DNA of 29,804 bases from a virus (IMGVR_UViG_3300031951_000871:1-29804), one strand, 5' to 3'; positions 1 through 17,636 are shown, counted from the first letter of the stretch. A program made the numbers and translations. Notes: a model not told the origin generated them from the letters alone.

Positions 1-429
1 GGAATCGGTGAGCTTGCTGGTCAGTGAGACCGCAACACCCGTGACAGCAGACTCCAGGATGTTGAGGCTTGACGCTGCCTCCCCTGCTCCTTTGACGACA
101 GCAGACTTGAAAACATCAACACCGTTCCGCGCCTCTTTGAAGGCCGCTGCGATCTTGCTGCCGCCCTGGCTGATCTTGTCCAGGACTGACGAGGGGATGA
201 TTTCCCCCTTCGCCGTCTCAAACTGAAGCTTGGTGCTGTTGAACCGAACCCCTACATCCTTAGCCGCCTTCTCCGCAGCACTGGTGATCTCATCAAATGC
301 CTTCTTGGCCGCTGGCGTCAGCCTGTTGCGGAAGGCCTCACCTGCCTTGCCACCTTCTGCTTCCAGGGCGCGACGGATCTCATCCTGGTTCTCCAGGAGT
401 AAGGCAATCGAAACCTGAAGATCTGCCAC
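1..429 (-). CDS. Tail tape measure protein, N-terminal part (runs off the left edge)
   Basis: Open reading frame read leftward from a GTG at 429-427 and still open at position 1, giving about 143 residues. It begins V-A-D-L-Q-V-S-I-A and continues as an Ala/Lys/Glu-rich helical sequence with short Gly patches, typical of the start of a tape measure protein, which sets tail length and sits inside the tail tube. An in-frame TAG lies 15 codons upstream and GTG is the only plausible start between them; no ATG is available. The promoter-like word at 455-465 ends 25 bases before the GTG, and a terminator precedes that, so this gene appears to head its own transcription unit. The assignment rests on composition and on position after the tail-tube and chaperone genes; another minor tail protein is possible because most of the gene is outside the window. 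Confidence 0.6.
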   Translation of the reverse strand, partial: MADLQVSIALLLENQDEIRRALEAEGGKAGEAFRNRLTPAAKKAFDEITSAAEKAAKDVGVRFNSTKLQFETAKGEIIPSSVLDKISQGGSKIAAAFKEARNGVDVFKSAVVKGAGEAASSLNILESAVTGVAVSLTSKLTDS

Positions 430-454
430 CCGGCCCGCGTCGCGCTACTGATTG

Positions 455-465
455 GAGTTTTCCCG
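455..465 (-). promoter_or_regulatory. Late promoter-like word, copy 1 (before tape measure)
   Basis: Minus strand reads CGGGAAAACTC, ending 25 bases before the GTG at 429. It lies just after the Rho-independent terminator at 474-503, so transcription of the downstream gene must restart about here. Resembles the -10 of SigB/SigF promoters; no conserved -35 is visible. Confidence 0.65.
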
Positions 466-473
466 TGAGCAAC

Positions 474-503
474 AAAAAACCCCGATCTCCGTCCAGACCG
501 GGG
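474..503 (-). terminator. Rho-independent terminator after the 533-967 gene
   Basis: On the minus strand a 9-base stem CCCCGGTCT / AGATCGGGG (one G-U pair, 6-base loop) is followed immediately by six T. It sits 30 bases after the stop of the 533-967 gene and before promoter-like copy 1. Confidence 0.8.
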
Positions 504-532
504 CCATCTCTCCAACACCTAGGACTTTATGC

Positions 533-967
533 CTACAGCCTGACCACTGCGGTGGGACATGTCCATGTCAAGACATGCTGGCTAAGCCCCGTGGTGAGCC
601 CGTCGATGGTCACGTCGGCTGCGTTGCTGCCAGGGAGGAGCGCCTGAAGGCGGTTGAGCACGGCTTGAACGTTGTAGGCCCCGGAGCTGGCCGGCTCCCA
701 CTGCGTCACCGTGAGGCGAAACGTGGGGTTCTGATAGACCTCTCCGGTCTGTGCTGGCTGCGCTGCAGTGCCCATGGGCGAGCGCCAGACGATGACCTCA
801 ACCCCGCTCGGAATCGTGGTGGCCTCGATGGTTTCCTTCGGGAAGAAGTGGGCCAGGGCCTTCCTGGTGCCGCCTCCCGCGAGGGTGTGGATGCCCATCA
901 GGGGGGTCAGCACGGTGTCGGCTGCCAGGAGGTCGAAGAGGGCGATGGTGGTGGTGGGGAGGGGCAT
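533..967 (-). CDS. Tail terminator / minor tail protein-like, 144 aa
   Basis: Starts MPLPTTTIALFDLLAADTVL. The size (144 aa) and the pattern fit a tail-terminator/tail-completion protein (lambda gpU type): N-terminal helices, beta-rich middle with VEVIVWRSP, then a helix NVQAVLNRLQALLPG and a C-terminal strand. Such proteins cap the tail tube at the end that joins the head. There is no single diagnostic motif, so this rests on size, composition and position next to the tape measure gene. The upstream neighbour is divergent, so the gene needs its own promoter; the only candidate is the CGGGAAAACTG word 5 bases before the ATG, which would give an almost leaderless mRNA. A terminator follows the stop. 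Confidence 0.5.
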   Translation of the reverse strand: MPLPTTTIALFDLLAADTVLTPLMGIHTLAGGGTRKALAHFFPKETIEATTIPSGVEVIVWRSPMGTAAQPAQTGEVYQNPTFRLTVTQWEPASSGAYNVQAVLNRLQALLPGSNAADVTIDGLTTGLSQHVLTWTCPTAVVRL

Positions 968-972
968 GTGTG

Positions 973-983
973 CAGTTTTCCCG
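973..983 (-). promoter_or_regulatory. Late promoter-like word, copy 2 (divergent junction)
   Basis: Minus strand reads CGGGAAAACTG, only 5 bases before the ATG at 967, the shortest spacing of the ten copies. The gene to the right is divergent, so this word is in the only region that can drive the 533-967 gene. Confidence 0.6.
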
Positions 984-997
984 CCCCACGCTGCCTA

Positions 998-1009
998 TCC
1001 TGATCAGGG
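998..1009. repeat. Palindrome CCTGATCAGG at divergent junction
   Basis: TCCTGATCAGGG contains the perfect 10-base palindrome CCTGATCAGG. It lies between promoter-like copy 2 and the rightward gene at 1030. The extended 12-base form TCCTGATCAGGA recurs at 9385-9396, also next to a promoter-like copy at a divergent junction, and at 17572-17583 inside the sigma gene. It may be an operator. Confidence 0.35.
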
Positions 1010-1029
1010 CGCTTCACCGACCCTGTGCC

Positions 1030-1239
1030 ATGCCAGAACCCGACTCCATCACCGGCCAATCCTCGGCGCCCATGGCGTTGACAACAGAGCAGCACTTTGA
1101 GATGGAGCGCCACATGCGCTTGTTGGATGACATCACCGACGTAGCAACCCTGCGGAATCTCTCTAAGCAATTCCTACACCTGTGGATGAGTCAGAAAGCA
1201 GCCACAGCCTGGGCGATGCGCCAGCAGTGGGGGCTCTGA
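1030..1239 (+). CDS. NblA-like small protein (phycobilisome degradation adaptor), tentative
   Basis: Encodes 69 aa from ATG 1030, or 55 aa from ATG 1072 (M-A-L-T-T-E-Q-H-F), which is the usual NblA size. The segment L-T-T-E-Q-H-F matches the conserved NblA start L-S-x-E-Q-Q-F. A D-I-T follows about 11 residues later, where NblA has D-I-S or M-S, and the protein ends R-Q-Q-W-G-L, like the K-H-Q-W-G-L ending of several cyanobacterial NblA proteins. NblA is a small helical protein that links phycobilisomes to the ClpC protease during pigment degradation; some freshwater cyanophages carry it. Neither start has a clear Shine-Dalgarno sequence. It is the first gene of a rightward cassette inserted between tail genes. 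Judged from remembered family features only; it could be an unrelated small helical protein. Confidence 0.5.
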   Translation: MPEPDSITGQSSAPMALTTEQHFEMERHMRLLDDITDVATLRNLSKQFLHLWMSQKAATAWAMRQQWGL

Positions 1240-1243
1240 GGCC

Positions 1244-1417
1244 ATGGCTTGCGGTTTGGTTCGCCTGATCTGTGAAGATCCCTCAGACTCCTGGCAGCCA
1301 CCTGAAGGGCAGCAGGGCAGGCCCCTGGTGGTTGATGTTCGCCCAGAAGATGTAGCCAAGACTCTGGCTAGATTGAAAAGCGACGGATGGCAATTCATCT
1401 CGGAATGGCAGCTATGA
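1244..1417 (+). CDS. Small protein of unknown function, 57 aa
   Basis: ATG 1244 to TGA 1417, starting MACGLVRLICEDPSD and ending FISEWQL. It begins 4 bases after the NblA-like stop, and its stop overlaps the next start as ATGA (1414-1417), strong evidence that it is translated in series with its neighbours. It has a predicted alpha/beta pattern (VVDVRPEDVAKTLARLKSDGW) and no motif I recognise. Confidence 0.7.
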   Translation: MACGLVRLICEDPSDSWQPPEGQQGRPLVVDVRPEDVAKTLARLKSDGWQFISEWQL

Positions 1418-2001
1418 CCTCCACCCCATCGGCCCCTGTCAAGACCACCACAGCAGGCCCACCGATCTGGCCGCCTGGGTTGGTTGGCCCCAAGATCCGG
1501 CCAGCCCTCAAGGCGGGCGATCACCACCTGATCGCCAATGACGGGAACGAAACCCTGCGGGCTTTCACCCATGACGGCCGGCCCCTATGGACGATCCCTT
1601 GTCTCTGCCGTGGGCAGGGTGGGGAGGCTGAATGGCACCGCACGGCCACAGACACGCCCCCTGGCCTTTACCGGATCAACAAAGGCGGGATCTACCGGGA
1701 TCACGAGGACCACCCCTCCAGCAAATACCACTCGGCCAACCGCTGCGCCTATGGCTGGTATTCCTTCGATCTGGAAGGTCTGGAAGGGCAGGAGGGCCCC
1801 AGCAGCAAGCCCTACCGTGACGGGATCATGATCCACGGCGGCGGCAGTGCCTGCGGCTGGCCAGGGGCCTGGGCACCGCGTCAAACGCTCTATCCCACCC
1901 TCGGTTGCATCCGCCTCCACAATCAGGATCTGCAGGCTCGCATCCTGCCCCTGTTGCCGCTGGGCAATGTCTACGTCTCAGTGCTGCAGGAGGCCCATTG
2001 A
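1414..2001 (+). CDS. L,D-transpeptidase-like (YkuD-fold) protein
   Basis: 195 aa from ATG 1414 (ATGA overlap with the upstream gene). The C-terminal half carries the YkuD signature: I-H-G-G-G in the first part, then T-L-G-C-I-R-L-H-N, where Cys is the expected catalytic nucleophile with His and Arg nearby. YkuD enzymes make or exchange 3-3 peptide cross-links in peptidoglycan and act outside the membrane; no signal peptide or membrane segment is visible here. The N-terminal half has strands such as HHLIANDGNETLRAF and a DTPPGLYRI segment typical of the fold entry. In a phage it could act on the wall during lysis or be a virion-associated wall enzyme; this is inference. Confidence 0.75.
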   Translation: MTSTPSAPVKTTTAGPPIWPPGLVGPKIRPALKAGDHHLIANDGNETLRAFTHDGRPLWTIPCLCRGQGGEAEWHRTATDTPPGLYRINKGGIYRDHEDHPSSKYHSANRCAYGWYSFDLEGLEGQEGPSSKPYRDGIMIHGGGSACGWPGAWAPRQTLYPTLGCIRLHNQDLQARILPLLPLGNVYVSVLQEAH

Positions 2002-2306
2002 GCACGGATGCACTGGCCCTGGACGTGGCCCTAGTTCGGGTTCAGCTGGGCATTGACACCATGGAGGCGCAATGCGCTGCCGCCATTGAGCAGGCCCACA
2101 CCAGGGCCGCCGCTGCTATCGAGGAGGCCAGCCAGCGAGCGATGGCGCAGGCAGAAGATCGGCTGAAGGCTGCCTACGAAATGGGCAAGCTGGACCATGA
2201 GCGGGAAGTGTTGCTCTCCATTGAGCAGGAGCTGACGGGCGAGGGCGAAAGCACCCATGCCGCGATGGTTCTGCAACGGCTGAAGCGCAAGATCACCGCC
2301 TCTTAA
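1998..2306 (+). CDS. Coiled-coil protein, 102 aa, TTG start
   Basis: A TTG start at 1998 overlaps the upstream stop (TTGA) and is preceded by AGGAGG at 1988-1993, one of the few good ribosome binding sites in this region. The protein is almost entirely helical and charged (IEQAHTRAAAAIEEASQRAM and onward), compatible with a coiled coil, and ends RLKRKITAS. It has no membrane segment, so a spanin is unlikely. Its place after the YkuD-like gene suggests a role with it, but the function is unknown. An internal ATG at 2061 is an alternative start. Confidence 0.65.
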   Translation: MSTDALALDVALVRVQLGIDTMEAQCAAAIEQAHTRAAAAIEEASQRAMAQAEDRLKAAYEMGKLDHEREVLLSIEQELTGEGESTHAAMVLQRLKRKITAS

Positions 2307-2340
2307 CTGGCCCACATCAGGACACGGGCTAGCCTGGGGG

Positions 2341-2372
2341 CGATGCTTTGGCCTGCTGCCTTGGCATCGTTT
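2341..2372 (+). terminator. Possible weak terminator hairpin
   Basis: CGATGC at 2341-2346 pairs with GCATCG at 2364-2369, followed by only three T. Located in the 148-base gap between two rightward genes. The short T tract makes attenuation or RNA structure equally likely. Confidence 0.3.
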
Positions 2373-2400
2373 GCCCATGGATTTCCTTACCTTCCAGTTC

Positions 2401-2418
2401 TTCAAAGGTTCCTTTGAA
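2401..2418. repeat. Inverted repeat upstream of the 2455 gene
   Basis: TTCAAAGG, two bases, then CCTTTGAA: perfect 8-base arms 37 bases before the ATG at 2455. It could be an operator or a leader hairpin. It would be coding if translation began at the upstream in-frame ATG at 2371. Confidence 0.4.
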
Positions 2419-2454
2419 AAGCTGAATCGTTCCATCACTACCTTTACACGAACA

Positions 2455-2892
2455 ATGTCTGCTCTCGTTACCAAACTCAAGGAAGTCCTTGAGTATCTCG
2501 CCACTGAAAAGGCTGGCATCCTGGCTGAACTGGCCTCCACCAAGGCAGCCCTTGCCGAGGCCCTGGCCAATGATGTTGCCGATGCTGGCACCATCACCGC
2601 CGCTCTGGCTGCTGCTGAGGCTGCTCAGTCTGAAGCCGCTGCTGCTCAGATCAGGATCAGCGAGCTTCAGGCCCTGGCCGATGCTGATCTGCTGGAAGAT
2701 GAGGCCCTGCTGGAGCTGCTCGATGGCGTGATCCCCGTCCCGCCAGCTGAGGAGCCCGTGGCACCCCCTGCAGAAGAACCTGCCCCTGTGGTGGATGAGC
2801 CTGCAGTGGAAGAGCCCGTGGCTGAGGAGCCCATCTCCGAAGAGCCTGCGGCACCTGCCGAAGAGCCTGCCCCTGAGGAGCCCGTATCCTGA
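2455..2892 (+). CDS. Helical protein with acidic Pro-rich tail, 145 aa
   Basis: From ATG 2455 (MSALVTKLKEVLEYLATEKA) the first about 95 residues are Ala/Glu/Leu-rich helix with heptad character. The last about 50 consist of Glu-Glu-Pro repeats (EEPV, EEPA, EEPI), giving a very acidic disordered tail. An in-frame ATG at 2371 would add 28 residues but would run through the inverted repeat at 2401-2418, so the shorter form is preferred. Last gene of the rightward cassette, closed by a strong terminator 46 bases downstream. Function unknown; a trimeric or dimeric accessory structural protein is one possibility. Confidence 0.65.
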   Translation: MSALVTKLKEVLEYLATEKAGILAELASTKAALAEALANDVADAGTITAALAAAEAAQSEAAAAQIRISELQALADADLLEDEALLELLDGVIPVPPAEEPVAPPAEEPAPVVDEPAVEEPVAEEPISEEPAAPAEEPAPEEPVS

Positions 2893-2937
2893 CTCGGATG
2901 GGCTAGGATCTTTTCGGACTAGGACCGGCAATGGGTA

Positions 2938-2970
2938 GGGTCTGCGGGGTGAGAGCTGCAGACCCTTTTT
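2938..2970 (+). terminator. Strong Rho-independent terminator closing the rightward cassette
   Basis: GGGTCTGC at 2938-2945 pairs perfectly with GCAGACCC at 2958-2965, followed by TTTTT at 2966-2970. It separates the converging rightward cassette and the leftward tail-tube unit; the T tract serves only the rightward direction. Confidence 0.88.
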
Positions 2971-2975
2971 CATGC

Positions 2976-3155: not shown

Positions 3156-3156
3156 C

Positions 3157-4023
3157 TTATGAGTTGTCGAGGATGGTGAACACGGTGCCCAGCACGTTCA
3201 GAGTGGCCGAATACTTCACCAGGGCCCCAGCATCGCCCTCTTCGCTCTTGCTGGCGAAGCGGCCGTAGCACAGCTTTTTCTCAACCGTCCCACCAGGGCC
3301 AACCCGCAGATACTTCACCGCCAGCCGCTCGGCCGTGGCCCGCTCCCTGAGAACTTCCATGACCTTGTGGTCAACGTTCTTGTGAGCGGTCATACCGCTG
3401 AACGCGAAGGAGTGAGTGTCAGTCACGCCCACGGTGATGGCAGAACCCCTGGTCACCTGGTCATGGGTGATCACGGTCTCATCCGAGGTCTCCGTGCTGT
3501 GGGGCGCAGAGGTGACGTTCAGCAGCTGGATTGGGGCGCCGGTTCCATCAAGGGGATAGACGCCGGTGACAACGCTGCCAGCGCTGACGGAGGCCGAGCT
3601 GATGTTGGTCGCTGTCAGCGCGTAGCTCACAGTGAAGGGGGAGGTGGTGGTGACCGCCGTGATGGTGTGAGTCCCGTTCAGGCCGGCGAAGGGGGAGGTC
3701 AGACCAGAGACCGCGATCTTTTCGCCCACCAGGGCGCCAGCTGCAGCGCTCAGGGTCAGGGTAACCACGTTGGTGGCGAGGGCTGCATTGGTGACGCTCA
3801 GCGTGTTGCCAGCCACGAACATCTGAAAGGTTGTGCCAGAGCCAGACGCGGCGACAGAAAGCTGACCACTGATGGCGTTGGCAGCATTCAACCAGCTGGT
3901 CAGAGCCGAACCGCCAGCCGCTGCAGTTTGCGCATCCTCAAGGGTGATGTCACTCATCTTGAGGGGCACGATGTAGTGCTGGATGTCCAGCGCTGCGCTG
4001 TAGTCGATGTTGGTGGTGGTCAT
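3157..4023 (-). CDS. Major tail tube protein with inserted beta domain, 288 aa
   Basis: Start ATG 4023 (MTTTNIDYSAALDIQHYIVP). Residues about 80-160 form a Thr/Ser/Val-rich beta segment (LSVTNAALATNVVTLTLSAA; SGLTSPFAGLNGTHTITAVT) resembling the small beta domains often inserted in phage virion proteins. The flanking segments, including FSGMTAHKNVDHKVMEVLRE and a C-terminal YSATLNVLGTVFTILDNS, look like a tail tube core. About 200 aa without the insert would be normal for a tube protein. The call is by composition and neighbourhood (tail chaperone gene just upstream); a capsid decoration or other beta-rich virion protein is the alternative. Heads a unit with promoter-like copy 3, 27 bases before the ATG. 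Confidence 0.6.
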   Translation of the reverse strand: MTTTNIDYSAALDIQHYIVPLKMSDITLEDAQTAAAGGSALTSWLNAANAISGQLSVAASGSGTTFQMFVAGNTLSVTNAALATNVVTLTLSAAAGALVGEKIAVSGLTSPFAGLNGTHTITAVTTTSPFTVSYALTATNISSASVSAGSVVTGVYPLDGTGAPIQLLNVTSAPHSTETSDETVITHDQVTRGSAITVGVTDTHSFAFSGMTAHKNVDHKVMEVLRERATAERLAVKYLRVGPGGTVEKKLCYGRFASKSEEGDAGALVKYSATLNVLGTVFTILDNS

Positions 4024-4043
4024 CGGGCGGGGTCGGGGAGTTC

Positions 4044-4721
4044 TTATCTGGAGTTTTCCCGCCCTTCGATGGCTAAAACGGCACCCGCTTTTGCGGCGGC
4101 AAACGTCGCTGTTGGCACCGCATCCGCAGGGATAGCCAGGGTCACCACGTCCCCGGCCTCCGAGGCAAACTGCCGCATGGCCCCGGCTGCGCTGGCCTTG
4201 GCAATCAGGAAGCCACCCCAGTGCGCCTGATCCACACGATGAGGGGCCAGCAGGATGGCATCCTCTGCAGCCCAGCAGAGACGCGGGGGAGCTGTTGCGC
4301 CCTTGCCTTGCGCCGATAGATCCTGCACCCATGGCCCGTTGAAGGCGAAGTTGGGCAGCAGGCCTTTCTCCAGTAGCGCGAGCATGGCCGCACCAGCCTC
4401 TGCCGGTGGGCGGGCCTTCTCTGAGACATCCGCCCAGAAGAAGAATTCAGACAGGCTGAACGGCTCGTGCTTTACGTCGCGGTTGCGGTTGATTTCCGCC
4501 TGGTACCAGGCGAGCTGGGCGGTGGTGAGTTCCTCGTGGTGAAGCCGCTGCCGTTCGCTTTCGTAACCCGCTTCGAGCGCTTGGAGGACGTAGCCGCCGG
4601 GGAGTCGCCCGAAGCGTTCGCGGCTGAATTCGGGGGCACCGGGCCAGAGTCGCTTGCATTCCCAGTAGCACCGGACCCAGTTTGGTCGGCTGCAATCAAG
4701 CCGACCTGCCGCAGCTTTCCC
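4044..4721 (-). CDS. Tail assembly chaperone, -1 frame extension (gpGT-like)
   Basis: The -1 frame relative to the 4472-5266 gene is open from the slippery site at 4721-4715 to TAA 4046-4044. Frameshifting would join 184 residues of the upstream gene to 223 residues of this frame, a 407-aa fusion. The sequence looks genuinely coding: PEFSRERFGRLPGGYVLQAL, then RLHHEELTTAQLAWYQAEIN and NRDVKHEPFSLSEFFFWADV. In this frame a TGA lies a few codons upstream of the slippery site, so no independent start fits except the internal ATG at 4385 (113 aa), which would begin in mid-domain. The G and GT forms of such proteins hold the tape measure protein while the tube polymerises. Confidence 0.75.
   Translation of the reverse strand, partial: GKAAAGRLDCSRPNWVRCYWECKRLWPGAPEFSRERFGRLPGGYVLQALEAGYESERQRLHHEELTTAQLAWYQAEINRNRDVKHEPFSLSEFFFWADVSEKARPPAEAGAAMLALLEKGLLPNFAFNGPWVQDLSAQGKGATAPPRLCWAAEDAILLAPHRVDQAHWGGFLIAKASAAGAMRQFASEAGDVVTLAIPADAVPTATFAAAKAGAVLAIEGRENSR
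4051..4061 (-). promoter_or_regulatory. Late promoter-like word, copy 3 (inside the end of the chaperone frame)
   Basis: CGGGAAAACTC on the minus strand, 27 bases before the tail tube ATG. It lies inside the last codons of the upstream -1 frame (encoding R-E-N-S), so its position is tied to the downstream start rather than to an intergenic gap. A GTTTTA lies 13 bases upstream of the GGGAAA, a possible SigB-like -35, but other copies lack one. Confidence 0.6.
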
Positions 4722-6206: not shown

Positions 6207-6782
6207 TCAGATGGGGCGGCGGATTCTGTTGGGAAGGGGTTTTAGGCCCGCTGTCTTTCTTGCCTTCACCTGCGTCAGCTTTGCCGCTCTTGACCTTGCT
6301 GCATCGCTCTTTGATCTCTTCTGCTTTCTGATCAAGCTGTCATCACCCGAGGCAGTTCGCCGCTGCTTCATGCTCTTGGGAATAGCGGCGCCGGGATCCC
6401 TCTTGGGAATCGTTCCGCGTGGGGCAGACGTTGCAAACACGTTGTCCCTGAGCACCGTGGGTGCCTTCCTTGCCCCCCTGCTGGCAACACCTAACGCTCT
6501 TGCCTGCTGCTTCAGGGTGGGGCTGACCCTTTTGACGATCGGGCCAGACTTGGCGCCCTTCATGCTGCGCATTTCGCGACTGAACTGGTCAATCGAGCGG
6601 CTGTAGGCACGGCGCGAAATTGTGCCCTTTGGCTTTGCCGTTCCTGTTGCCGCGTTGCGCTTCAGCCGGTCTGCCGAGACAGAGGCGCCAGTCTTTGACC
6701 TGATCGCTCGCCGTGCAGACGTTGACGCCCCGCCGCCACCGGCAAAGCGTCCGCGACTGTCACGGCGATAGATGCGGGCCAT
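6207..6782 (-). CDS. Basic protein with N-terminal RDxxGRFA module, 191 aa
   Basis: Starts MARIYRRDSRGRFAGGGGAS, then an Arg/Lys/Ser-rich, strongly basic, probably disordered chain ending NRIRRPI. The start overlaps the stop of the upstream related gene at 6782. The module (aromatic-x-R-D-x-x-G-R-F-A followed by Gly run) is shared with the proteins at 6782-7390, 13153-14670 and 14707-15174. Similar N-terminal sequences occur in other phage structural-region proteins. No fold or enzyme motif in the rest. A DNA-binding internal virion protein is possible given the charge, but that is inference. Confidence 0.65.
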   Translation of the reverse strand: MARIYRRDSRGRFAGGGGASTSARRAIRSKTGASVSADRLKRNAATGTAKPKGTISRRAYSRSIDQFSREMRSMKGAKSGPIVKRVSPTLKQQARALGVASRGARKAPTVLRDNVFATSAPRGTIPKRDPGAAIPKSMKQRRTASGDDSLIRKQKRSKSDAARSRAAKLTQVKARKTAGLKPLPNRIRRPI

Positions 6783-7390
6783 CAGCGGCGACCCTGGCTC
6801 ATGTATGGGCTTGCGCCGTAGCGAACACGGCGACTAGCTTCGGATTGCTGGGTTCGCTTGCTGTCTTGCATTTTGAGATAGCGGCCTTTGCCTGGTTCGT
6901 AGTCTGGCTTCGCTCCTCGCTGTTTTCGGGTCGCCTTACCTCGAAACAGAGAGTTAAACAATTCATCACCAGGCAGTCTTCCTTTTTTAGAAGTAGCTGA
7001 ATTTCCTTTTTCAGCTTCTTGGCGGCCTTTGTTGCGGATCTTGCTGATAGCCGCCATCCTGGCCGCCCTGCCGCCCCTGCCCACCGTGGAGACCTTGGAT
7101 CCCCCCTTGGCCATCTTTTCAGCGGCCTCTAAGCCGCGCTTCTTGAGCCCGCCTGCCCGAGCCTGAGCCGCCTTGCCACCTGAAAAGCCCTTGGCCTTAA
7201 TCCTGTCGCCAAGCGAGACGGTGCCCTTGGCTTTCAGCTCATTGGCGCGAGCTGTGTTCTTAGCCCTGGTGCTGGTCCCCTTGGATGACCCCTTGCTTTT
7301 TCCACCGCCCTTGCTGCTTCCACCGCCCCCGCCACCACCGGCAAACCTGCCGCGTGAATCGCGCTTGTAAGTCCTATTGCCTTTTGCCAT
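6782..7390 (-). CDS. Basic Gly-rich protein with RDxxGRFA module, 202 aa
   Basis: Starts MAKGNRTYKRDSRGRFAGGG followed by a Gly/Ser/Lys tract and a long Lys/Arg-rich chain with Ala helices (RAARMAAISKIRNKGRQEAE). The C-terminal end contains YEPGKGRYLKMQ and ends MSQGRR. First gene of a unit that continues through the chaperone gene; promoter-like copy 4 lies 27 bases before its ATG. A shared N-terminal module with three other proteins in the window suggests a common targeting or virion-incorporation role; function unknown. Confidence 0.65.
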   Translation of the reverse strand: MAKGNRTYKRDSRGRFAGGGGGGGSSKGGGKSKGSSKGTSTRAKNTARANELKAKGTVSLGDRIKAKGFSGGKAAQARAGGLKKRGLEAAEKMAKGGSKVSTVGRGGRAARMAAISKIRNKGRQEAEKGNSATSKKGRLPGDELFNSLFRGKATRKQRGAKPDYEPGKGRYLKMQDSKRTQQSEASRRVRYGASPYMSQGRR

Positions 7391-7417: not shown

Positions 7418-7428
7418 GAGTTTTCCCG
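7418..7428 (-). promoter_or_regulatory. Late promoter-like word, copy 4
   Basis: CGGGAAAACTC followed by AGGTA on the minus strand, 27 bases before the ATG at 7390, directly abutting the TGA of the upstream gene. The AGG(C/T)A extension is shared with copies 8 and 9 (and 5 in part), all before genes for basic proteins. Confidence 0.6.
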
Positions 7429-7557
7429 TCACTTCATCGGCTTGGCCTTCTTTCCGCCCTTAGCAGGAGCCTTAGCAGGAGCTTTCTTCCCGCCCTTGGC
7501 AGGCTTGGGCATGGGGGCCATCTTGCTGCCTCCGTAGGGCATTCCACCTTTGGGCAT
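7429..7557 (-). CDS. Very basic Lys/Pro/Ala peptide, 42 aa
   Basis: ATG 7557 (MPKGGMPYGGSKMAPMPKPA) to TGA 7429. Consists of Gly/Met/Pro then repeated A-K-G-G-K-K-A-P units ending KKAKPMK. It has its own promoter-like copy 20 bases upstream and another immediately after its stop, so it seems to be a separate unit. A histone-tail-like composition suggests nucleic-acid contact, for example condensing packaged DNA; this is inference. A longer in-frame start at 7626 would run through the promoter-like word and is not preferred. Confidence 0.55.
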   Translation of the reverse strand: MPKGGMPYGGSKMAPMPKPAKGGKKAPAKAPAKGGKKAKPMK

Positions 7558-7577: not shown

Positions 7578-7588
7578 CAGTTTTCCCG
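7578..7588 (-). promoter_or_regulatory. Late promoter-like word, copy 5
   Basis: CGGGAAAACTG followed by AGGTAG on the minus strand, 20 bases before the ATG at 7557 and just after the stop of the metallophosphoesterase gene. Confidence 0.6.
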
Positions 7589-7594: not shown

Positions 7595-8464
7595 TCAAGT
7601 CGCCGGCTCAAGGCTGATGTCCACACCCTCGTTCGTTGGGTTGAGCTTGAGCCACACGCCCCCCAGGCTCTTGGGCATCACGATGCGCTCAACTGCCCAG
7701 CCAGCGCCCTCCTCAAATTCCTCCTTGTAGCAACCTGTCTGGACATGCCAGCGTTGGGAAATTCGCTGCTTTCCAGAGCTGTTGAGCCGATAGCAGGGGT
7801 GGCTAACTATAGTCCTCTCATGGTTGTGGCCGTTAACAATTATCTGAGATTCCGGCGCCAGTGAGCTATACCTCATTCCTCCGAGGACGCCCTTACTTAC
7901 AACACCTCCCCAGGCGCCATGATGGAAAAACAACGTACACCGCCTAGTTCCATGCTCCCTGCTGATCCCTGGCCGGTAGAACGTGAACCAGATCCACCCC
8001 TGATAGCGCATGTGTTCAACAGGGGAGCCGTAGCGATCACGCATCAACCGCACAACATTGCCTAGCGGGTCAATCTCCTGGTTCCCGATCACTGCGGTCT
8101 CATGGTTGCCATCAGACATCATCAAGATGGTTGAAGCGAAAGGCGACAGCCATTCAGCGGTCTCGTCAAACACCAGATCGAAGTAGTTCGACCCAAGGTG
8201 CTCAGCCCTGATGCTGCCCTTTGAGCCACGGCGATCCTTCTTGCCTTGCATCAGGCACATCACATCCCCAAAGAAAAGGGCGTTACCGTTGACGCCCTGC
8301 ACTTGCTTGAGATGTTTCTTTAGTAAGTCCCGCCTGCACTTTGGGTTGTCAAGGTGTATATCAGACGCCAGCAAAAAGGTATGGGGTTCAGTCTTGCCAA
8401 TGGGAATCCGTATCTCTAGCAACTCCGGCGAGCGGCGTACAAGCCTTGGCGGGGAGTCGGTCAC
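7595..8464 (-). CDS. Calcineurin-like metallophosphoesterase, 289 aa, GTG start
   Basis: GTG 8464. Carries the metal-binding motifs of the family in order: S-D-I-H-L-D (about residue 34), F-G-D-V (about 65), S-D-G-N-H-E (about 117), F-H-H-G (about 177) and V-N-G-H-N-H (about 211). This supports a dinuclear metal phosphatase, nuclease or phosphodiesterase; the substrate cannot be read from the sequence. It sits alone between promoter-like copies 6 and 5, inside the virion gene block, so it may be made with the structural proteins. No signal peptide or membrane segment. A tandem-hairpin region separates it from the upstream gene. Confidence 0.85.
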   Translation of the reverse strand: MTDSPPRLVRRSPELLEIRIPIGKTEPHTFLLASDIHLDNPKCRRDLLKKHLKQVQGVNGNALFFGDVMCLMQGKKDRRGSKGSIRAEHLGSNYFDLVFDETAEWLSPFASTILMMSDGNHETAVIGNQEIDPLGNVVRLMRDRYGSPVEHMRYQGWIWFTFYRPGISREHGTRRCTLFFHHGAWGGVVSKGVLGGMRYSSLAPESQIIVNGHNHERTIVSHPCYRLNSSGKQRISQRWHVQTGCYKEEFEEGAGWAVERIVMPKSLGGVWLKLNPTNEGVDISLEPAT

Positions 8465-8489: not shown

Positions 8490-8500
8490 CAGTTTTCCCG
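8490..8500 (-). promoter_or_regulatory. Late promoter-like word, copy 6
   Basis: CGGGAAAACTG on the minus strand, 25 bases before the GTG of the metallophosphoesterase gene and downstream of the tandem hairpins at 8566-8609. Confidence 0.6.
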
Positions 8501-8611: not shown

Positions 8612-9121
8612 TCAGCTCCTCTGCAACATCCCCGCGCCAACCCCACCACGGGCCATGCGTTGCACGTTCAAGGTGGTCGCAATCCTGCTGATCAGCAGTT
8701 CAATCCGCTCGTCGCGCTGCCCCTGCGCCGTGGCCCTGGCGCCACTGCCGAAGCGATAACGGGCTTTGAGCAGGCTGGTATCCCACGTCAGCTTCCCGGC
8801 CTGGCTGAGCTGTGCATCGCGGTTGGGAGACGTGCCAGGGATGGGGCCCTCATATTCTTCGGCGTTGCCCAGGTGCGCCGTGCCGCTGTCCACTTCATCG
8901 GCCTGGGTTTCCTCAAGCGTGCCGATCTCATCCACCCACCCCTGAACCTGCGTGACGCTCGCGGGGGAGAGCTTGGCGACGGTGTTCATCTGTTGGATCA
9001 ACTCCGTCAAGCTGCCGTCGCTGGCGGGCCAGCCAATGTGCATCCGGATCAGGGCCAGATCATTGACCGTGGCGCTGCCGCTGTTGGGCCGCCAGAGGGT
9101 GTTCAGGGTTGGCAGGGTCAT
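8612..9121 (-). CDS. Possible head-tail connector protein, 169 aa
   Basis: ATG 9121 overlapping the upstream stop (TGATG). Begins MTLPTLNTLWRPNSGSATVN and contains a helix-rich chain (DLALIRMHIGWPASDGSLTE), an acidic loop (TQADEVDSGTAH) and a basic C-terminal helix (DERIELLISRIATTLNVQRM). Length and helical character fit phage connector/adaptor proteins that bind under the portal, and the position between head and tail genes agrees. No definitive motif. Confidence 0.45.
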   Translation of the reverse strand: MTLPTLNTLWRPNSGSATVNDLALIRMHIGWPASDGSLTELIQQMNTVAKLSPASVTQVQGWVDEIGTLEETQADEVDSGTAHLGNAEEYEGPIPGTSPNRDAQLSQAGKLTWDTSLLKARYRFGSGARATAQGQRDERIELLISRIATTLNVQRMARGGVGAGMLQRS

Positions 9122-9354
9122 CAGGCCGCCTCAGGTTGCTGGAGGCCCACCCGGTCACCATGAAGGGAGCCCAGCCAGAAGCGCTCCTGCGGGGTCAGGT
9201 TGCGGCAGAGCTGGCGCAGGATGAATTCCCCCTCGCGGTCATCGCATTCCTGGCTGATCATCCTGAGGCCCTGGCAGGCACCCACGGAATCGCGCAAAAG
9301 CACGCACACCGCAAGGGCTTGCAAGAGGCGAAGGGTGGGAGAGCGTGTGGGCAT
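9121..9354 (-). CDS. Small protein of unknown function, 77 aa
   Basis: ATG 9354 (MPTRSPTLRLLQALAVCVLL), with the next gene overlapping its stop. Helical, with four Cys residues and a central REGEFILRQLCRNLTPQERF. The N-terminal LLQALAVCVLL is moderately hydrophobic but short for a membrane span. First gene of a two-gene unit opposite a divergent cassette; promoter-like copy 7 is 19 bases upstream. Not recognised. Confidence 0.6.
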   Translation of the reverse strand: MPTRSPTLRLLQALAVCVLLRDSVGACQGLRMISQECDDREGEFILRQLCRNLTPQERFWLGSLHGDRVGLQQPEAA

Positions 9355-9373: not shown

Positions 9374-9384
9374 CAGTTTTCCCG
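9374..9384 (-). promoter_or_regulatory. Late promoter-like word, copy 7 (divergent junction)
   Basis: CGGGAAAACTG on the minus strand, 19 bases before the ATG at 9354. The neighbour to the right is transcribed the other way, so the two-gene unit needs a promoter here. Immediately preceded by the palindrome TCCTGATCAGGA. Confidence 0.65.
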
Positions 9385-9568: not shown

Positions 9569-9727
9569 ATGAATCACACCGCACAAGCGCTTATGGCGCT
9601 GGCCCTACTCCGCTCGCTCCCTAACTGGGAGCGAATCTCTCAGATCTACGGAGACATCGACGAGCACCTCACGGACCTGGCCGGTGATCTCGCCAACTAC
9701 CCATGGGAGGAACTGGAACGCGATTAA
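9569..9727 (+). CDS. Small protein of unknown function, 52 aa
   Basis: ATG 9569 to TAA 9727: begins MNHTAQALMALALLRSLPNW, ends YPWEELERD. Helical and acidic. No clear Shine-Dalgarno. First of five small rightward genes that interrupt the leftward virion block; supported by codon use and by close packing with the next gene. Not recognised. Confidence 0.55.
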   Translation: MNHTAQALMALALLRSLPNWERISQIYGDIDEHLTDLAGDLANYPWEELERD

Positions 9728-9777
9728 TCACGGCCCGCCGGGAGCCCATCCCGGCACTGTCCCATTGCATCACCACC

Positions 9778-10113
9778 ATGGCCCGCGAACACACCTACGC
9801 CGAAATTGCCAGCAGCTTTGAGCTGTGGCAGGAATTTGTAGATCGCCAAGGCGCGATGAGCCGCGAAGAATTTGACGCCATGAGCCACGCTGATCGAGTG
9901 GCCATCCAGATCGGGGTGTTCGGCCCAGAAGATCTCGTCCCCACCGTTGCCGACCTGCTGGAGCAGACCGCCATCAGCAACGGGCTCCACCGCTGGGCCG
10001 TCGAAGGCGGCTCCATCGAAGTGCCAGCCGATGTGCTGCGCCCCATCCTGGAAGACGCCTGCGACCCCTCCATGCCCAACTGGCCCGCCATGGTCGAGAT
10101 CGACTATGCCTGA
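9778..10113 (+). CDS. Hypothetical acidic protein, 111 aa
   Basis: ATG 9778 (MAREHTYAEIASSFELWQEF) to TGA 10113, overlapping the next start. Helical first half (DRQGAMSREEFDAMSHADRV) and an acidic second half ending WPAMVEIDYA. An upstream in-frame start at 9703 would overlap the previous gene and adds a poorly protein-like stretch, so it was not chosen. No recognised domain. Confidence 0.65.
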   Translation: MAREHTYAEIASSFELWQEFVDRQGAMSREEFDAMSHADRVAIQIGVFGPEDLVPTVADLLEQTAISNGLHRWAVEGGSIEVPADVLRPILEDACDPSMPNWPAMVEIDYA

Positions 10114-11707: not shown

Positions 11708-11720
11708 TTGAACCGATAGA

Positions 11721-11750: not shown

Positions 11751-11752
11751 CA

Positions 11753-13149: not shown

Positions 13150-13152
13150 GGT

Positions 13153-14670
13153 TTATGGCTTGCGTTTGCGGCGGATGGGTTTCTGGCCCTTGAGGCGCAA
13201 CTGAGGGAGCCCCCTTGCTTCGCGGTAAGCATCCATGACTTGATTGTCATACTTCCTGCCCGTGCGACGGCCGGCGTAGGTTTCGGCAATGAACTCGGAA
13301 GGATTTGTTGTTGCATAACGACTGACACGACGAGATAGCTTTGACATTTCCGTAGCTCTTTCTGCTCTCTTTTTATCGCTTGATCCCTGACGCGTGGCCA
13401 AGATCCACATCTCGCCAAATGGCCCTTGGCGATTGCGGATACTTTTATCTCTTGCGTGACCAAGTTCGTGGTAAAGAACGTGCATTGGTGATGAACTGGA
13501 AAATTGTCCGGCTGCACGACTTCTTCTTGCCGCACTGCCTGGATTTATCCAGTTAGCGTGCGACCTGTTTATGCTAATTTCTTTAGTTGCTAGATTGTAG
13601 CTGGCAATCGTTGATCCGCGTTTATTGCTGGAAAACTTGACCTTTAACCCTTTAGACTCAAAGAAATCCTGTGCCATTTTTGCATTGCCAAGACGAGCTT
13701 TTTTATCGTCGCTTGAAGCAGAAATCACGGTATTAGTTTTGCCTTTTCCCGATTGATAAGGATCTTTCCCTTTGGCAAATTTCCCTGTTACGTTCTTTGG
13801 CCTAAAGTTTCCTCGATAAAACTCACCGGGCCTAAAGCCGCCCACATCAGATTTGGCCTTCGCGGCTGGTTTTCCGTAGGAGACGCCTTGCATTCTTTTG
13901 AGGCGCTTGGTCTGTCCTGGTCTGAAGCCGCCTGCCGGCTTTTTGCTCATGGAAGCACCTGGCTTCAACCCCTTGGGCTTTGCAACGGTGCTGGGCGGTC
14001 TCGCCTTAGAGATTGCCTTATTAGGCTGTGCATATTTGCGCAGAGTTTCAGCTGTCAATCTGCGTCCGGGCTTTGGATTAGCCAGAACTACCCCTAGTTT
14101 TTTGGCTGAGTATTGAATTGATTTATTCATGGATGCAACTTGCCCTGGGCTCAGCCCTTTGCGCTTGTTAAAGTTTGCGCGGAGTATTGTCATTCCTTCT
14201 CTGATGCCCTGCCTTGCAGAAGCTCCACGTCCGCCAGAGGCAAGGGCATCGGTCTCAGATCTTTTTGCAATTCTTTCAGCTCTCCGCGTTTCTTTGGGGA
14301 GCGATTTAAGGAATTTCGCTTCTTTAGCCCTATCCTTAGCAAAATCAACTCTTTCTTTTCTTGCCTCTGGTGACTGAAGCTGTTTCTTAGCCTTTGGCTT
14401 CCCATAACTAACCCCCTGCATCGTCTTCAACTTCGCAACCTGCCTGCCCCTGAGATTCCCTGCCGCCGTCTTCAATCTCCCGCCCCTGACCGTTGCACCG
14501 TCCCCGCCTTGGCTGGTGATCTTGCCCGCGTTGTCTCGCGTCAGGCGATTAGGGCCACGCTTGACGGCCTTGGTTGCTGGCCGCTTCGGGCCGCCGCCTC
14601 CTGGGGTGCTGGCAAACCTGCCGTTGGCGTCCCTGACATAGGTTCGGCGGGAGCTACCTCGGCGGGCCAT
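13153..14670 (-). CDS. Large basic protein: RDxxGRFA module plus HELGH zinc peptidase-like domain, 505 aa
   Basis: ATG 14670 (MARRGSSRRTYVRDANGRFA). The N-terminal about 300 residues are Lys/Arg/Gly-rich and include two near-copies of the phrase M-Q-G-V-S-Y-G-K-P and repeated G-F-R-P-G. The C-terminal part is more globular: a segment KLGVVLANPKPGRRL, then about residues 390-410 H-V-L-Y-H-E-L-G-H-A-R-D, a classic HExxH zinc-peptidase helix, followed by an R-Y-A-T-T-N-P-S-E-F-I-A-E-T-Y-A segment in which the E of xSEFIAE could be the third zinc ligand or support it. Codon use is locally more A/T-rich around 13550-13800 than in neighbours. It heads the unit with promoter-like copy 8. Perhaps an injected or internal virion protein. 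Confidence 0.7.
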   Translation of the reverse strand: MARRGSSRRTYVRDANGRFASTPGGGGPKRPATKAVKRGPNRLTRDNAGKITSQGGDGATVRGGRLKTAAGNLRGRQVAKLKTMQGVSYGKPKAKKQLQSPEARKERVDFAKDRAKEAKFLKSLPKETRRAERIAKRSETDALASGGRGASARQGIREGMTILRANFNKRKGLSPGQVASMNKSIQYSAKKLGVVLANPKPGRRLTAETLRKYAQPNKAISKARPPSTVAKPKGLKPGASMSKKPAGGFRPGQTKRLKRMQGVSYGKPAAKAKSDVGGFRPGEFYRGNFRPKNVTGKFAKGKDPYQSGKGKTNTVISASSDDKKARLGNAKMAQDFFESKGLKVKFSSNKRGSTIASYNLATKEISINRSHANWINPGSAARRSRAAGQFSSSSPMHVLYHELGHARDKSIRNRQGPFGEMWILATRQGSSDKKRAERATEMSKLSRRVSRYATTNPSEFIAETYAGRRTGRKYDNQVMDAYREARGLPQLRLKGQKPIRRKRKP

Positions 14671-14689
14671 CAGGCATCAGTCTCTGCCT

Positions 14690-14700
14690 GAGTTTTCCCG
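14690..14700 (-). promoter_or_regulatory. Late promoter-like word, copy 8
   Basis: CGGGAAAACTC then AGGCAG on the minus strand, 19 bases before the ATG at 14670, six bases after the upstream stop. Its extension matches copy 9, which could mean that the two paralogous genes were duplicated with their upstream regions. Confidence 0.6.
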
Positions 14701-14706
14701 TGTTGC

Positions 14707-15174
14707 TTACTTCTTCTTCGCCGGAAGCTGCCCCGTAGCAATCAGGATCCTGCGGGCGATCGGGTCGAGGAACCTATTGCGCTTGACCTTCGCCTGAGGC
14801 GCGGTGGCTTTCTTGGCCCTCCTCTCAGCCAGTGCGCCAGGCTTGAGGCCTTTAGGCTTGCCCACGGTGCCCTTCTTGCCGCTGATGGCGAGCGCCTTGG
14901 TGGATTCCCTCTTGGCTGCCTTGAGTGCCTTCTTTGAGCGTGTCACCACCCCTTTTTGAGCACTGCGCGACTTGCTGCCCTTGATCGAATCATCGGCTGG
15001 ATCCTTGGCCGCGAGCTTGGCCTTGGCCTTCTTAAGGGCTGAACGCTTGCCCAGGGTGCCGCCAGTCATGGCGCTTTTCTTCCTGCCCTTTGAGCCACCG
15101 CCACCGCCAGGGGTTGAGGCGAAGCGCCCATTCCCATCGCGCACATAAGAACGTCTACCCCCACCCTTGGCCAT
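14707..15174 (-). CDS. Basic protein with RDxxGRFA module, 155 aa
   Basis: Start chosen at ATG 15174 (MAKGGGRRSYVRDGNGRFAS), matching the starts of its paralogues; an ATG two codons upstream (15180) is possible. After the module and a Gly tract the chain is Lys/Ala/Arg-rich (KAKAKLAAKDPADD; SKKALKAAKRESTKALAISG) and ends with a short hydrophobic-basic segment R-I-L-I-A-T-G-Q-L-P-A-K-K-K. It shares the phrase P-K-G-L-K-P-G-A with the 505-aa neighbour, evidence of common descent. Unknown function; a DNA-contacting virion protein is one idea. Confidence 0.65.
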   Translation of the reverse strand: MAKGGGRRSYVRDGNGRFASTPGGGGGSKGRKKSAMTGGTLGKRSALKKAKAKLAAKDPADDSIKGSKSRSAQKGVVTRSKKALKAAKRESTKALAISGKKGTVGKPKGLKPGALAERRAKKATAPQAKVKRNRFLDPIARRILIATGQLPAKKK

Positions 15175-15194
15175 GCTCAACCCAGCTACTGCCT

Positions 15195-15205
15195 GAGTTT
15201 TCCCG
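15195..15205 (-). promoter_or_regulatory. Late promoter-like word, copy 9
   Basis: CGGGAAAACTC then AGGCAG on the minus strand, 20 bases before the ATG at 15174, directly abutting the portal TGA. Confidence 0.6.
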
Positions 15206-16714
15206 TCAGCTCAGCTCGTCCTCTTCCAGCTCCTCTTCCGGGTCATCCCCTGCCAGCTCATTAGGGCCCGGTGTCGGCGGGTTGAACAGCCGCTCCTCTT
15301 TCTCGGCCTCCTCCTCCAGTTGCTCAGCCTCTTTGCTGCCATCCACCCCAGGCCGCAGCATCCCCCGCTTCTGCGCCAGGTGGGTCACGGTCTCGCGCAT
15401 CAGGAGGCCCTTGTCGTAGAGCGTGCCTGCCAGGGTGAGCAAGGCATCATCCACAGGCTTATCGGTGACACCCGGCAACAGATCCAGACCGGCACCAGCC
15501 TGCGGGAAGTCGCCGGTAAAGGCCCCCCACAGTTGGAACATGCTCTCCCAGCACGAGCTTTTGGCCTCAGCCATCGCCGTGATGTTGGCCTGGATCTGTG
15601 CGCTCTCCAGCTCGGCCTGAGTTGCCGTGCGCTCCCCACCGCCTGAGAACAGGAAGCTGAGGGTGCTCCTGTCAATCAGCTTTTCGATCCCCTCCAGGTG
15701 CGCTAGGTGCTTGTCCAGGCTGCTGCCCGTGGGCTCCGCGAAGGTGAGGCTCCCATTGGGGTCTTTGATCTCTACCAGGCTGTTTGGCCCGAGCGTCAGG
15801 GGCTGTCCTGGGGCCCTTCCAGCGTCCTTGAGCACCGTCACCGGCAGAGCGCAGCGGTGGAGCAGCTCCTTCAGGTCGGAGTATTCGCGGAACCAATCCA
15901 AGGTGAGATTGGCGAGACTCAGTAGGGGCAGCCCGCCTTCCCCGAACCCATCCCGCGTCGCTGAATACCAGACCACGGGGGGCGAGGCCAGGGGCTGGCC
16001 ATCAGCGCCAAGGAACTGGCCCTCTTCCACCAGGCTGACCGAGTAGCTGGCGGTCTTGCCCCTGCTGCCGTCCCCCTCGATCTTCATCAACATCCACTCC
16101 CCGCCCTTCATCACCCGATAGCGAGGCTCCAGCTTTGAGCCGAAGTCGCCATCTTCCACCTCATGCCACTCCAGAACCGTCACCAACGTTGGCACCTTGC
16201 GCCGGCCCACCTTCTGCAACTTCCAGTTCAGAACGTTGCGCCGCTCAGCCACGGAGAACACAGGCCGGCGGCCTTGGGCCCGCTCCTCTGCCCTGCTCTC
16301 AGGGCTCCCCTGAGGCATGTCCACCATCAGCAGGCAGCCGCCGTCCCTGAGGGCCAGCGCATCAGCAGCCATGCCCCAGGCCTTCAGGCTGTTGCCCTCG
16401 CCGTCGATGTCATTGGAGCCATCCAACAGGCCCTTCTGCACCCCTCTCAGCTCATACCGGCTAAGCACCCCGGCGAAGGCGTGGATGCCATCGCGGTAAA
16501 AGCTGGGATAGGAGGAACGCCTGACCCGCGATGCGTAGGCCTTCTCTGGCTCCCCCTCTTCCTTCGGCAGGTGGCGCTTTTTTGCATCCCCACGCAACAG
16601 CTCCCAGCAGTCCGCAACCAATTCCAGATCAGCCATCACCTCGGTTAAGACCGGATGGCGGAAACTCGGCAGATCGCCCTTATTTGATGGATGGCTGATT
16701 GCCTGATGCCGCAC
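15206..16714 (-). CDS. Portal protein (DUF4055-like), 502 aa
   Basis: ATG 16714 (MRHQAISHPSNKGDLPSFRH). The early section K-K-R-H-L-P-K-E-E-G-E-P-E-K-A-Y-A-S-R-V-R-R-S-S-Y matches the start of DUF4055-type portals, and the middle contains a long helix-rich region (SLANLTLDWFREYSDLKELL) and E-S-A-Q-I-Q-A-N-I-T-A-M-A-E-A-K, as seen in portal stems. The last about 50 residues are strongly acidic (EEEAEKEERLF; DDPEEELEEDELS). A portal is the dodecameric ring through which DNA enters the head. The gene starts inside the 3' end of the sigma gene (35-base overlap), and promoter-like copy 10 is 24 bases before its ATG. Confidence 0.82.
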   Translation of the reverse strand: MRHQAISHPSNKGDLPSFRHPVLTEVMADLELVADCWELLRGDAKKRHLPKEEGEPEKAYASRVRRSSYPSFYRDGIHAFAGVLSRYELRGVQKGLLDGSNDIDGEGNSLKAWGMAADALALRDGGCLLMVDMPQGSPESRAEERAQGRRPVFSVAERRNVLNWKLQKVGRRKVPTLVTVLEWHEVEDGDFGSKLEPRYRVMKGGEWMLMKIEGDGSRGKTASYSVSLVEEGQFLGADGQPLASPPVVWYSATRDGFGEGGLPLLSLANLTLDWFREYSDLKELLHRCALPVTVLKDAGRAPGQPLTLGPNSLVEIKDPNGSLTFAEPTGSSLDKHLAHLEGIEKLIDRSTLSFLFSGGGERTATQAELESAQIQANITAMAEAKSSCWESMFQLWGAFTGDFPQAGAGLDLLPGVTDKPVDDALLTLAGTLYDKGLLMRETVTHLAQKRGMLRPGVDGSKEAEQLEEEAEKEERLFNPPTPGPNELAGDDPEEELEEDELS

Positions 16715-17636
16715 CCTTTCTGCCTATCCCTGCTGTGGGAGTTTTCCCGGTTTTTTTGGGGGTTACTTCCTGGGGCGCTTCGGCAAGTAGGGCGAGCTGC
16801 TCAGCGACCATCAGGATCTCCTCCGCGCTCTTTCCATCCAAGGGCAGGCTGGGCTGATCAATGATCTGCGGATCCGGCCAGGCCGCACCCAATCGGATGA
16901 CCCCCTTGGCCTTGGCCAGGAACTGCCCGTAAGGCAGGCGAGCCAGTTGCCGCTTGCATGGCTTCGGGGCAATCCAGGTGAATTCCAGCATTGCGCGATC
17001 AGCAAACTTCAGCGAAGCGTGCGCCAGATCCGCAATCCTCAAAGCCTCAGCCAGATTGTCATGGGCCTCTAGGTCGTCCCACGGGTCGGGGTTGGTGTTC
17101 TCCCCCACGGCAAAGTCCTGATCCTCTGGGTCCAGAACCTGCGTTGCACCCTGCGCTTGCAGGATGCCTTCCACGTCATCAGAGGAAAGGCCTGTGGCGG
17201 TGATGACCTCCTCCAGGGTGGAGCCCTTGGCCGCCATGCGCCGAACAATGGGGGCCTTGTCGCGCCACCTGTCCGGGAACTTCACCCCGCTCGTGTGGCC
17301 ACGATCCCGCAGCCAGTGGAACATCGCGCCCCGGATGTAGGGCACAACGCAGGTGGAGAGCCGGTAGGGCTCACCCGTGCCTGGATTGATCCGCTCCGGG
17401 TCGTAGATACGGCACCCCTTCAGCAGGCCCTGGGCGGCCACCAGGTAGAGGTCATCAAATGGCATCCGCGTGGTCCTGGCCAGCCTGGAGGCCATGGAGC
17501 GTGCTAGCTGGAGGTTCTCTGCCGCGAGCTGCTCAGACCATGCCGTAGGTGCAGGGAAGCTGCCCAGGCGCTCCTGATCAGGACAGGGATCAGCCTGGGG
17601 TCGAACCCTGGTGCTCCTGGCCCTGGTGGCTGTCAC
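16680..17636 (-). CDS. Phage RNA polymerase sigma factor (SigB/SigF-like region 2), 318 aa
   Basis: ATG 17636 overlaps the terminase stop (ATGA). Region 2 spans about residues 38-115: E-N-L-Q-L-A-R-S-M-A-S-R-L-A (2.1), then F-D-D-L-Y-L-V-A-A-Q-G-L-L-K-G-C (core-binding 2.2), then Y-D-P-E-R and Y-R-L-S-T-C-V-V-P-Y-I-R-G-A-M-F-H-W-L-R-D-R-G-H (2.3-2.4, -10 recognition), closest in pattern to SigB/SigF group factors. A region-3-like helical part follows (LEEVITATGLSSDDVEGILQ). No clear region 4 helix-turn-helix is visible; a divergent candidate is at about residues 215-260 (ADRAMLEFTWIAPKPCKRQL). That would fit promoters with a -10 but no -35. The gene lies just before the first of ten GGGAAAACT words. 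It contains the TCCTGATCAGGA palindrome at 17572-17583. Confidence 0.85.
   Translation of the reverse strand: MTATRARSTRVRPQADPCPDQERLGSFPAPTAWSEQLAAENLQLARSMASRLARTTRMPFDDLYLVAAQGLLKGCRIYDPERINPGTGEPYRLSTCVVPYIRGAMFHWLRDRGHTSGVKFPDRWRDKAPIVRRMAAKGSTLEEVITATGLSSDDVEGILQAQGATQVLDPEDQDFAVGENTNPDPWDDLEAHDNLAEALRIADLAHASLKFADRAMLEFTWIAPKPCKRQLARLPYGQFLAKAKGVIRLGAAWPDPQIIDQPSLPLDGKSAEEILMVAEQLALLAEAPQEVTPKKTGKTPTAGIGRKGAASGNQPSIK
16739..16749 (-). promoter_or_regulatory. Late promoter-like word, copy 10 (inside the sigma gene end)
   Basis: CGGGAAAACTC on the minus strand inside the last codons of the sigma factor gene (encoding G-K-T), 24 bases before the portal ATG. Rightmost copy; none was found to its right. 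Confidence 0.65.
17572..17583. repeat. 12-base palindrome TCCTGATCAGGA inside the sigma gene
   Basis: Exact repeat of the palindrome at 9385-9396, about 55 bases after the sigma start codon (encodes D-Q-E-R). It could be a site that regulates sigma expression, or chance in coding DNA. Confidence 0.25.

Follow-up and report, generated by a model that had tools for sequence, protein, structure and literature searches.

The viral stretch IMGVR_UViG_3300031951_000871:1-29804 (29,804 nucleotides (nt), analysed whole and called the window here) carries a sigma factor gene next to its terminase and, in front of its virion genes, repeated copies of a ten-base word, CGGGAAAACT. Does the one read the other, and what would then switch on the late genes? 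Comparing the window with its relatives, we consider it likely that the phage uses a clamp-tethered late sigma factor that resembles T4 gp55, arose separately from a SigF-type factor, and reads the word as a promoter built of a −10 element only.

A strand-biased word precedes the virion genes

An exact search of the window found ten copies of CGGGAAAACT, its most frequent 10-mer. All are on the minus strand; the plus strand has none, and neither has the part of the window right of sigma. Allowing one mismatch adds a single plus-strand site and no minus-strand one, and the resulting total of 11 compares, at the same tolerance, with a mean of 1.33 and a maximum of 6 in 100 shuffles. Every copy (10/10) sits shortly before a leftward gene, 20–28 nt from the start codon in nine cases and 6 nt in one (from the copy at 16740 downwards: 25, 21, 20, 20, 26, 21, 28, 28, 6 and 26 nt). 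A GC stem followed by a T run, resembling a terminator, precedes the copy at 456, and two more, at 4052 and 16740, fall within the 3′ ends of upstream frames. An original prediction made from the window alone had listed ten mismatch-free minus-strand copies (a count that the shuffles never reach), no perfect copy on the plus strand or among the genes right of sigma, a terminator before copy 1, and copies 3 and 10 inside upstream coding 3′ ends, all of which our searches recovered; its distances of 19–27 and 5 bases equal ours once its 11-base word is allowed for. The copies are as follows.

16740–16749, minus strand: candidate late promoter word before the portal gene (15206–16714), in frame within the sigma 3′ end; the orthologous site in other clades has their own word
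15196–15205, minus strand: candidate word before gene 14707–15174
14691–14700, minus strand: candidate word before gene 13153–14670 (505 amino acids)
9375–9384, minus strand: candidate word before gene 9121–9354
8491–8500, minus strand: candidate word before gene 7595–8464 (exonuclease-like)
7579–7588, minus strand: candidate word before small gene 7429–7557
7419–7428, minus strand: candidate word before gene 6782–7390
4052–4061, minus strand: candidate word before a tail-protein gene (PHROG tail protein, 1.6e-18) starting at about 4023; the frame 3157–4332 is an over-long open reading frame (ORF)
974–983, minus strand: candidate word 6 nt before the ATG of gene 533–967, which would give a near-leaderless transcript
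456–465, minus strand: candidate word before gene 1–429 (continuing beyond the window edge), after the terminator-like stem

On the minus strand the genes run in the order TerS, dCTP deaminase, TerL, sigma, portal and then virion genes, with no word before the sigma gene itself or before TerL in the window; the sigma gene is therefore placed just ahead of the first late promoter. The right-end genes on the plus strand serve replication and lack the word. The neighbours that define this arrangement are:

17633–19270, minus strand: terminase large subunit (PHROG, 9.1e-74), directly upstream of sigma, with no word before it
15206–16714, minus strand: portal protein (PHROG, 2.6e-67), the first gene under the word
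24706–28290, plus strand: early replication genes (DnaB-like, O-like initiator, RusA), with no word

The word has the form of a −10-only promoter

We aligned 56 non-redundant word sites, upstream to −50, and no upstream position was meaningfully conserved; the lack of a shared −35 in the flanks, originally noted for the window, thus extends to all 56 sites, none of which has a −35 at a fixed place. Downstream of the word there is a G-rich stretch with A at +6 (36/56) and a purine at +7 (54/56), and then almost nothing. This looks like a −10 element with a transcription start about 7 nt downstream; at the single-element promoters of phiEco32, starts lie 6–8 base pairs (bp) downstream (PMC8948821).

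The word could instead act at the RNA level, as a translation enhancer, processing site or leader. Its closeness to start codons fits such a role, as does the lack of excess of Shine-Dalgarno-like 4-mers in the leaders (32/118, background 0.24). However, across the ten largest records word and start codon are separated by anything from about 4 to 42 nt, and copies 5–6 nt from an ATG, namely the window copy at 974 and, with the variant GGAAAGCT, sites in several clade B records, would yield near-leaderless messages, which speaks against a leader. Conservation also ends sharply past the purine at +7, and the word differs by sigma clade (see below); we regard an RNA-level element as scarcely probable.

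A SigF-like sigma factor with no detectable region 4

The gene between TerL and portal has the following features:

16680–17636, minus strand: phage sigma factor gene (318 amino acids, GTG start)
17133–17534, minus strand: sigma regions 2 and 3 (residues 35–168); residues 34–168 match positions 5–138 of the 227-position SigBFG profile, with helices predicted at low confidence
16785–16799, minus strand: clamp-binding-like motif QLALL (residues 280–284), aligned with QLDLF, QLALF and QPSLF of relatives

The window sigma matches PHROG sigma families (6.8e-19 and 8.8e-17) and, in NCBIfam, SigF PRK07408 (1.6e-12, below the curated cut-off) and SigBFG (1.6e-7). Among 20 diverse members of the family, SigF or SigBFG profiles match regions 2–3 in all 20 (PRK07408 in each of them, best at 2.3e-23) and Sigma70_r2 matches in 19 (best 9e-10). 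Profile matches in the PDB are to Staphylococcus aureus SigB, a SigF-type structure and SigA, and Foldseek confirmed sigma factors and nothing further. Region 4 was not detected in the window sigma, in any of the 17 members of one profile search, or in 19 of the 20 members of another. The best reading is that the phage sigma derives from a SigF/SigB-type factor of which regions 2 and 3 were kept, with no detectable region 4, which agrees with the SigB/F-like assignment first given to positions 16680–17636. Two scans of genome contigs gave no cellular or prophage homologues, and the host is therefore deduced from kinship to cyanophages alone.

Word and sigma factor occur together in relatives

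A scan with the sigma protein recovered 28 loci at 44–89% identity, in 27 of which the word is present unaltered on the strand of the sigma gene; the record of the remaining locus, L012, ends within the sigma frame. Counting copies of the word across the ten largest records that bear it gave 120 on the sigma strand and 2 on the other. In the other direction, a scan with the word alone (CGGGAAAACTNNGGCAG, no protein used) returned at least 119 stretches, compared with 25 for a letter-reversed control, of which 5/25 loci also had some family protein. Among the 118 loci of the CGGGAAAACTNNGGCAG matches listed, the 56 that bear the word at least twice are all from this phage family, and the copies there number 216 on one strand and 1 on the opposite one.

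Eighteen word-bearing records were searched for the sigma gene, which is present in all six longer than 50 kilobases (kb). Six shorter records without sigma also lack the neighbouring portal, and in G039 the portal is present and the sigma is represented by its tail alone at the contig edge; the portal check covered these seven records, with four further short ones (9–13 kb) outside it. The sigma-less records lacking the portal are thus fragments that do not reach the sigma-portal junction, and in no record found to span that junction did we see the word without the sigma gene. The co-occurrence that the original prediction proposed to look for in related phages holds in both directions, and no junction-spanning relative among those found pairs the word with a missing sigma gene.

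A profile scan of viral contigs gave 110 sigma relatives, of which 80 were kept, down to about 33% identity. In the 61.6-kb relative G018, words are found before the portal, tail, tape measure and scaffold genes, with none before the integrase, exonuclease VIII, replication initiator or TerS genes; one of its 17 words lies outside the late region, before an 88-amino-acid ORF near the left end.

Different sigma lineages have different words

In a clade at about 35% identity (L107–L138), the full word of the window is not enriched; the word enriched upstream of genes is GGAAAGCT, in the same places and at the same spacings. A third clade (G022) has mainly GGAAACCT, and at the site before the portal each clade carries its own version. 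The cultured marine phages S-CBS2, S-CRES1 and P-SS2 have a looser word, GGNAWNCT, found 17–32 nt before annotated starts in 15, 14 and 10 copies, respectively. Across 1500 permuted patterns the means were 0.7–0.9, and the observed counts were reached by 0 (S-CBS2), 1 (S-CRES1) and 0 (P-SS2) patterns; GGNAWNCT was partly suggested by the tested phages themselves, S-CBS2 above all, so that this result counts as support and not as a blind test. When placed on a tree of the sigmas, the words agree with the clades at a cost of four changes, many inner branches being weak. We conclude that the pairing of promoter and sigma is well supported by these comparisons.

Some other searches fell outside this pattern. 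CGGGAAAACT itself was searched for in S-CBS2, S-CRES1, P-SS2 and Slash and was found in none. First k-mer guesses for the cultured cyanophages (AGAGGAAC, GCGGTAGA and CTCCCTTT) were discarded because they fell in unsuitable places or repeats, and Bacillus phage Slash was set aside as a relative, its sigma being 29% identical over just 100 residues and no such word being present.

This co-divergence bears on who reads the word. A host group 3 sigma (SigF) might do so, leaving the phage sigma another role, since the closest profile of the phage sigma is SigF and GGGAAAACT fits a SigF-type −10 element, as the original prediction held. Yet the word follows the phage sigma lineage, the sigma gene is present in every record found spanning the site, and there is no −35, an element that a complete SigF should normally read; we hold this reading very unlikely. 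Least credible of the explanations weighed here is an operator or a site for another phage transcription protein. Annotations of P-SS2 gp085 and S-CBS2 gp034 do mention RNA polymerase-like proteins, but these are shorter than 200 amino acids, too small for a single-subunit polymerase, and the fixed purine at +7 and the co-divergence with sigma would be left unexplained.

A clamp-binding-type motif in the sigma tail

Beyond region 3 the sigma sequence is strongly divergent and hardly alignable between clades, with a short motif kept. Q280 and L283 are invariant in a 17-member alignment, and a strict beta-clamp-type tail motif occurs in 14 of 16 sequence clusters, compared with 0.6 expected when tails are shuffled; a published beta-clamp-binding consensus is QLxLF near the C-terminus (PMC4549789). 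A low-GC lineage has QLDLF at the very C-terminus; the wider clade of the window has QLALF, QLVLF, QLDLF or QLGLF; clade B has QPSLF or QSSLF within a proline-rich tail; and the very last residues of S-CRES1 and S-CRES3 are QGSLF. The clade A tail extends past the motif and across the portal promoter, where the word is translated in frame as GKT.

Two side observations concern these tails. In the window (16710–16760) the portal promoter word inside the sigma tail reads T-GKT in frame, and what follows the clamp motif looks like read-through across the promoter. The deposited sigma of S-CBS2 (L038:26833-27450; rpoS of NC_015463) stops early, apparently frame-broken near its 3′ end, and an alternative frame terminates in QGSLF, the ending also seen in S-CRES1 and S-CRES3.

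DnaN, the clamp itself, is encoded in all four large records of the lineage whose sigma ends in QLDLF (G012, G015, G016 and G031; L054:6218-7345 for G012 and G015:15534-16661), although in G031 the sigma is cut by the contig end and its own tail is not visible. All three beta-clamp domains were confirmed in the DnaN of G012. That gene lies on the strand opposite the late genes, between late words. DnaN was not seen in the remaining records searched, the window included, many of which are fragments; near-complete records without it would have to use the host clamp.

From the motif and the phage-encoded clamps, we infer that the sigma tail binds the sliding clamp. In the mechanism that we propose, the phage sigma with host core RNA polymerase would read CGGGAAAACT as a −10-only late promoter; lacking a −35 contact, the sigma would probably be held on the DNA by its tail peptide, bound to the beta clamp left by replication; and the late genes would fire on replicating phage DNA. 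Most lineages, that of the window among them, would use the host clamp, and one its own DnaN.

Several points weigh against this mechanism. The 16 clusters share ancestry and are not 16 independent trials. Some motifs are imperfect (QLALL in the window, QAALL in L001, QLVLI in L083 and QLGIF in L087), L110 has no motif at the aligned place, and P-SS2 has none altogether. A weak region 4 match appears in one of the 20 diverse members (E 0.018), and the AlphaFold models are poor (mean predicted local distance difference test score 55–58), such that a degenerate region 4 could hide after residue 170. Nor was a gp33-like coactivator identified, no gp33-specific search having been made and many small late genes being without a family.

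The main rival is the same promoter and sigma pair without use of the clamp, with specificity coming from the unusually long −10 word alone. The precedent is phiEco32 gp36, which reads a single conserved element, tAATGTAtA, with the start spacing given above (PMC8948821), and the imperfect window motif and the P-SS2 tail fit it too. Against it stand the retention of QxxLF in the tails of nearly all clusters despite their hardly alignable flanks and the DnaN genes of the QLDLF-end lineage. We judge a sigma that works without the clamp to be unlikely and favour the clamp-tethered factor.

Relation to known systems

In T4, gp55, gp33 and gp45 provide a sigma with region 2 and without region 4, −10-only late promoters, a clamp-binding tail on a linker, and the clamp as the link to replication (PMC7892883, PMC2988020). 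The family described here shares with gp55, judging by its sequences, a sigma region 2, no region 4 found and a −10-only word; its conserved tail motif, imperfect in the window, may make the tail clamp-binding as well. It differs in that the phage sigma is SigF-like and has region 3, with profile matches to SigB, SigF, SigA and PHROG sigma families and no kinship to gp55; in that the word is GG-A-rich (CGGGAAAACT) and not AT-only; and in that the tail motif is of the bacterial beta type, the proposed clamp being host or phage DnaN. Because both sequence kinship and promoter sequence fail, the phage sigma is not a member of the gp55 family. The original prediction of a gp55-like late switch built on a SigF-type factor gains support from strand bias in relatives, the missing −35, the fixed purine, co-occurrence and co-divergence, and the comparison with T4 is stronger than first drawn owing to the clamp-binding-type tail motif and the lineage with its own clamp. 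We lean towards the view that clamp-coupled late transcription evolved a second time and separately from T4, out of a SigF-type sigma that lost region 4 and gained a beta-clamp tail, working mostly with the host clamp and in one lineage with its own DnaN, as the −10 word shifted stepwise with the sigma across the family. What appears to be new is the beta-clamp-binding-type motif in the tail of a phage SigF-like sigma; a literature search limited to open-licence papers found no report of a clamp-riding late sigma outside T4-type phages.

PhiEco32 gp36 is likewise a phage sigma with one highly conserved element and a similar start distance; the sigma and the word are different, and the available text (PMC8948821) mentions no clamp link. 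The group 3 sigmas of P-SS2, S-CBS2 and S-CRES1-3 are the same gene, directly after terL and homologous, which makes these phages distant members of the same system. They differ in having 26–27% identity to the window sigma over the alignment, in the relaxed word GGNAWNCT and, for P-SS2, in a sigma tail without the motif. The authors of the P-SS2 report proposed that its group 3 sigma serves a particular regulon, and the sites were not named (PMC2784084). Bacillus SigF and SigB and cyanobacterial SigF give the best profile matches in regions 2–3, and the −10 pattern is compatible with SigF; unlike them, the phage system has no detected region 4 and no −35, and a clamp-type motif takes the place of the tail.

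If our reading is true, its separate origin in cyanosiphoviruses would make clamp activation a repeatable way of tying late genes to replication, and P-SS2 and S-CBS2 would have a regulon for their so far unassigned group 3 sigma. Each large high-GC genome in the clade of the window would be predicted to hold about 10–17 late promoters, the family would offer a natural series of sigma and −10 pairs for specificity studies, and cultured phages exist that allow direct tests.

Additional features of the window and its relatives

S-CBS2 (L038), S-CRES1 (L037) and P-SS2 (L039) have, beside ssb, a further sigma that is RpoD-like; the relatives of the window have at most one sigma by Sigma70_r2.

Two repeat families of the window were judged unrelated to the word. 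The palindrome CCTGATCAGG occurs at 999, 9386 and 17573, two copies being directly upstream of late words; three copies are also present in the near relative G002 and few or none elsewhere. Four near-identical ACCCCTCCCCCAAA repeats (25493–25592) lie inside the replication initiator gene 25210–26313 and are perhaps the origin iterons of an O-type initiator. Finally, a plus-strand ORF at 9703–10113, within the leftward virion region, matches phrog_17406 (7.3e-13).

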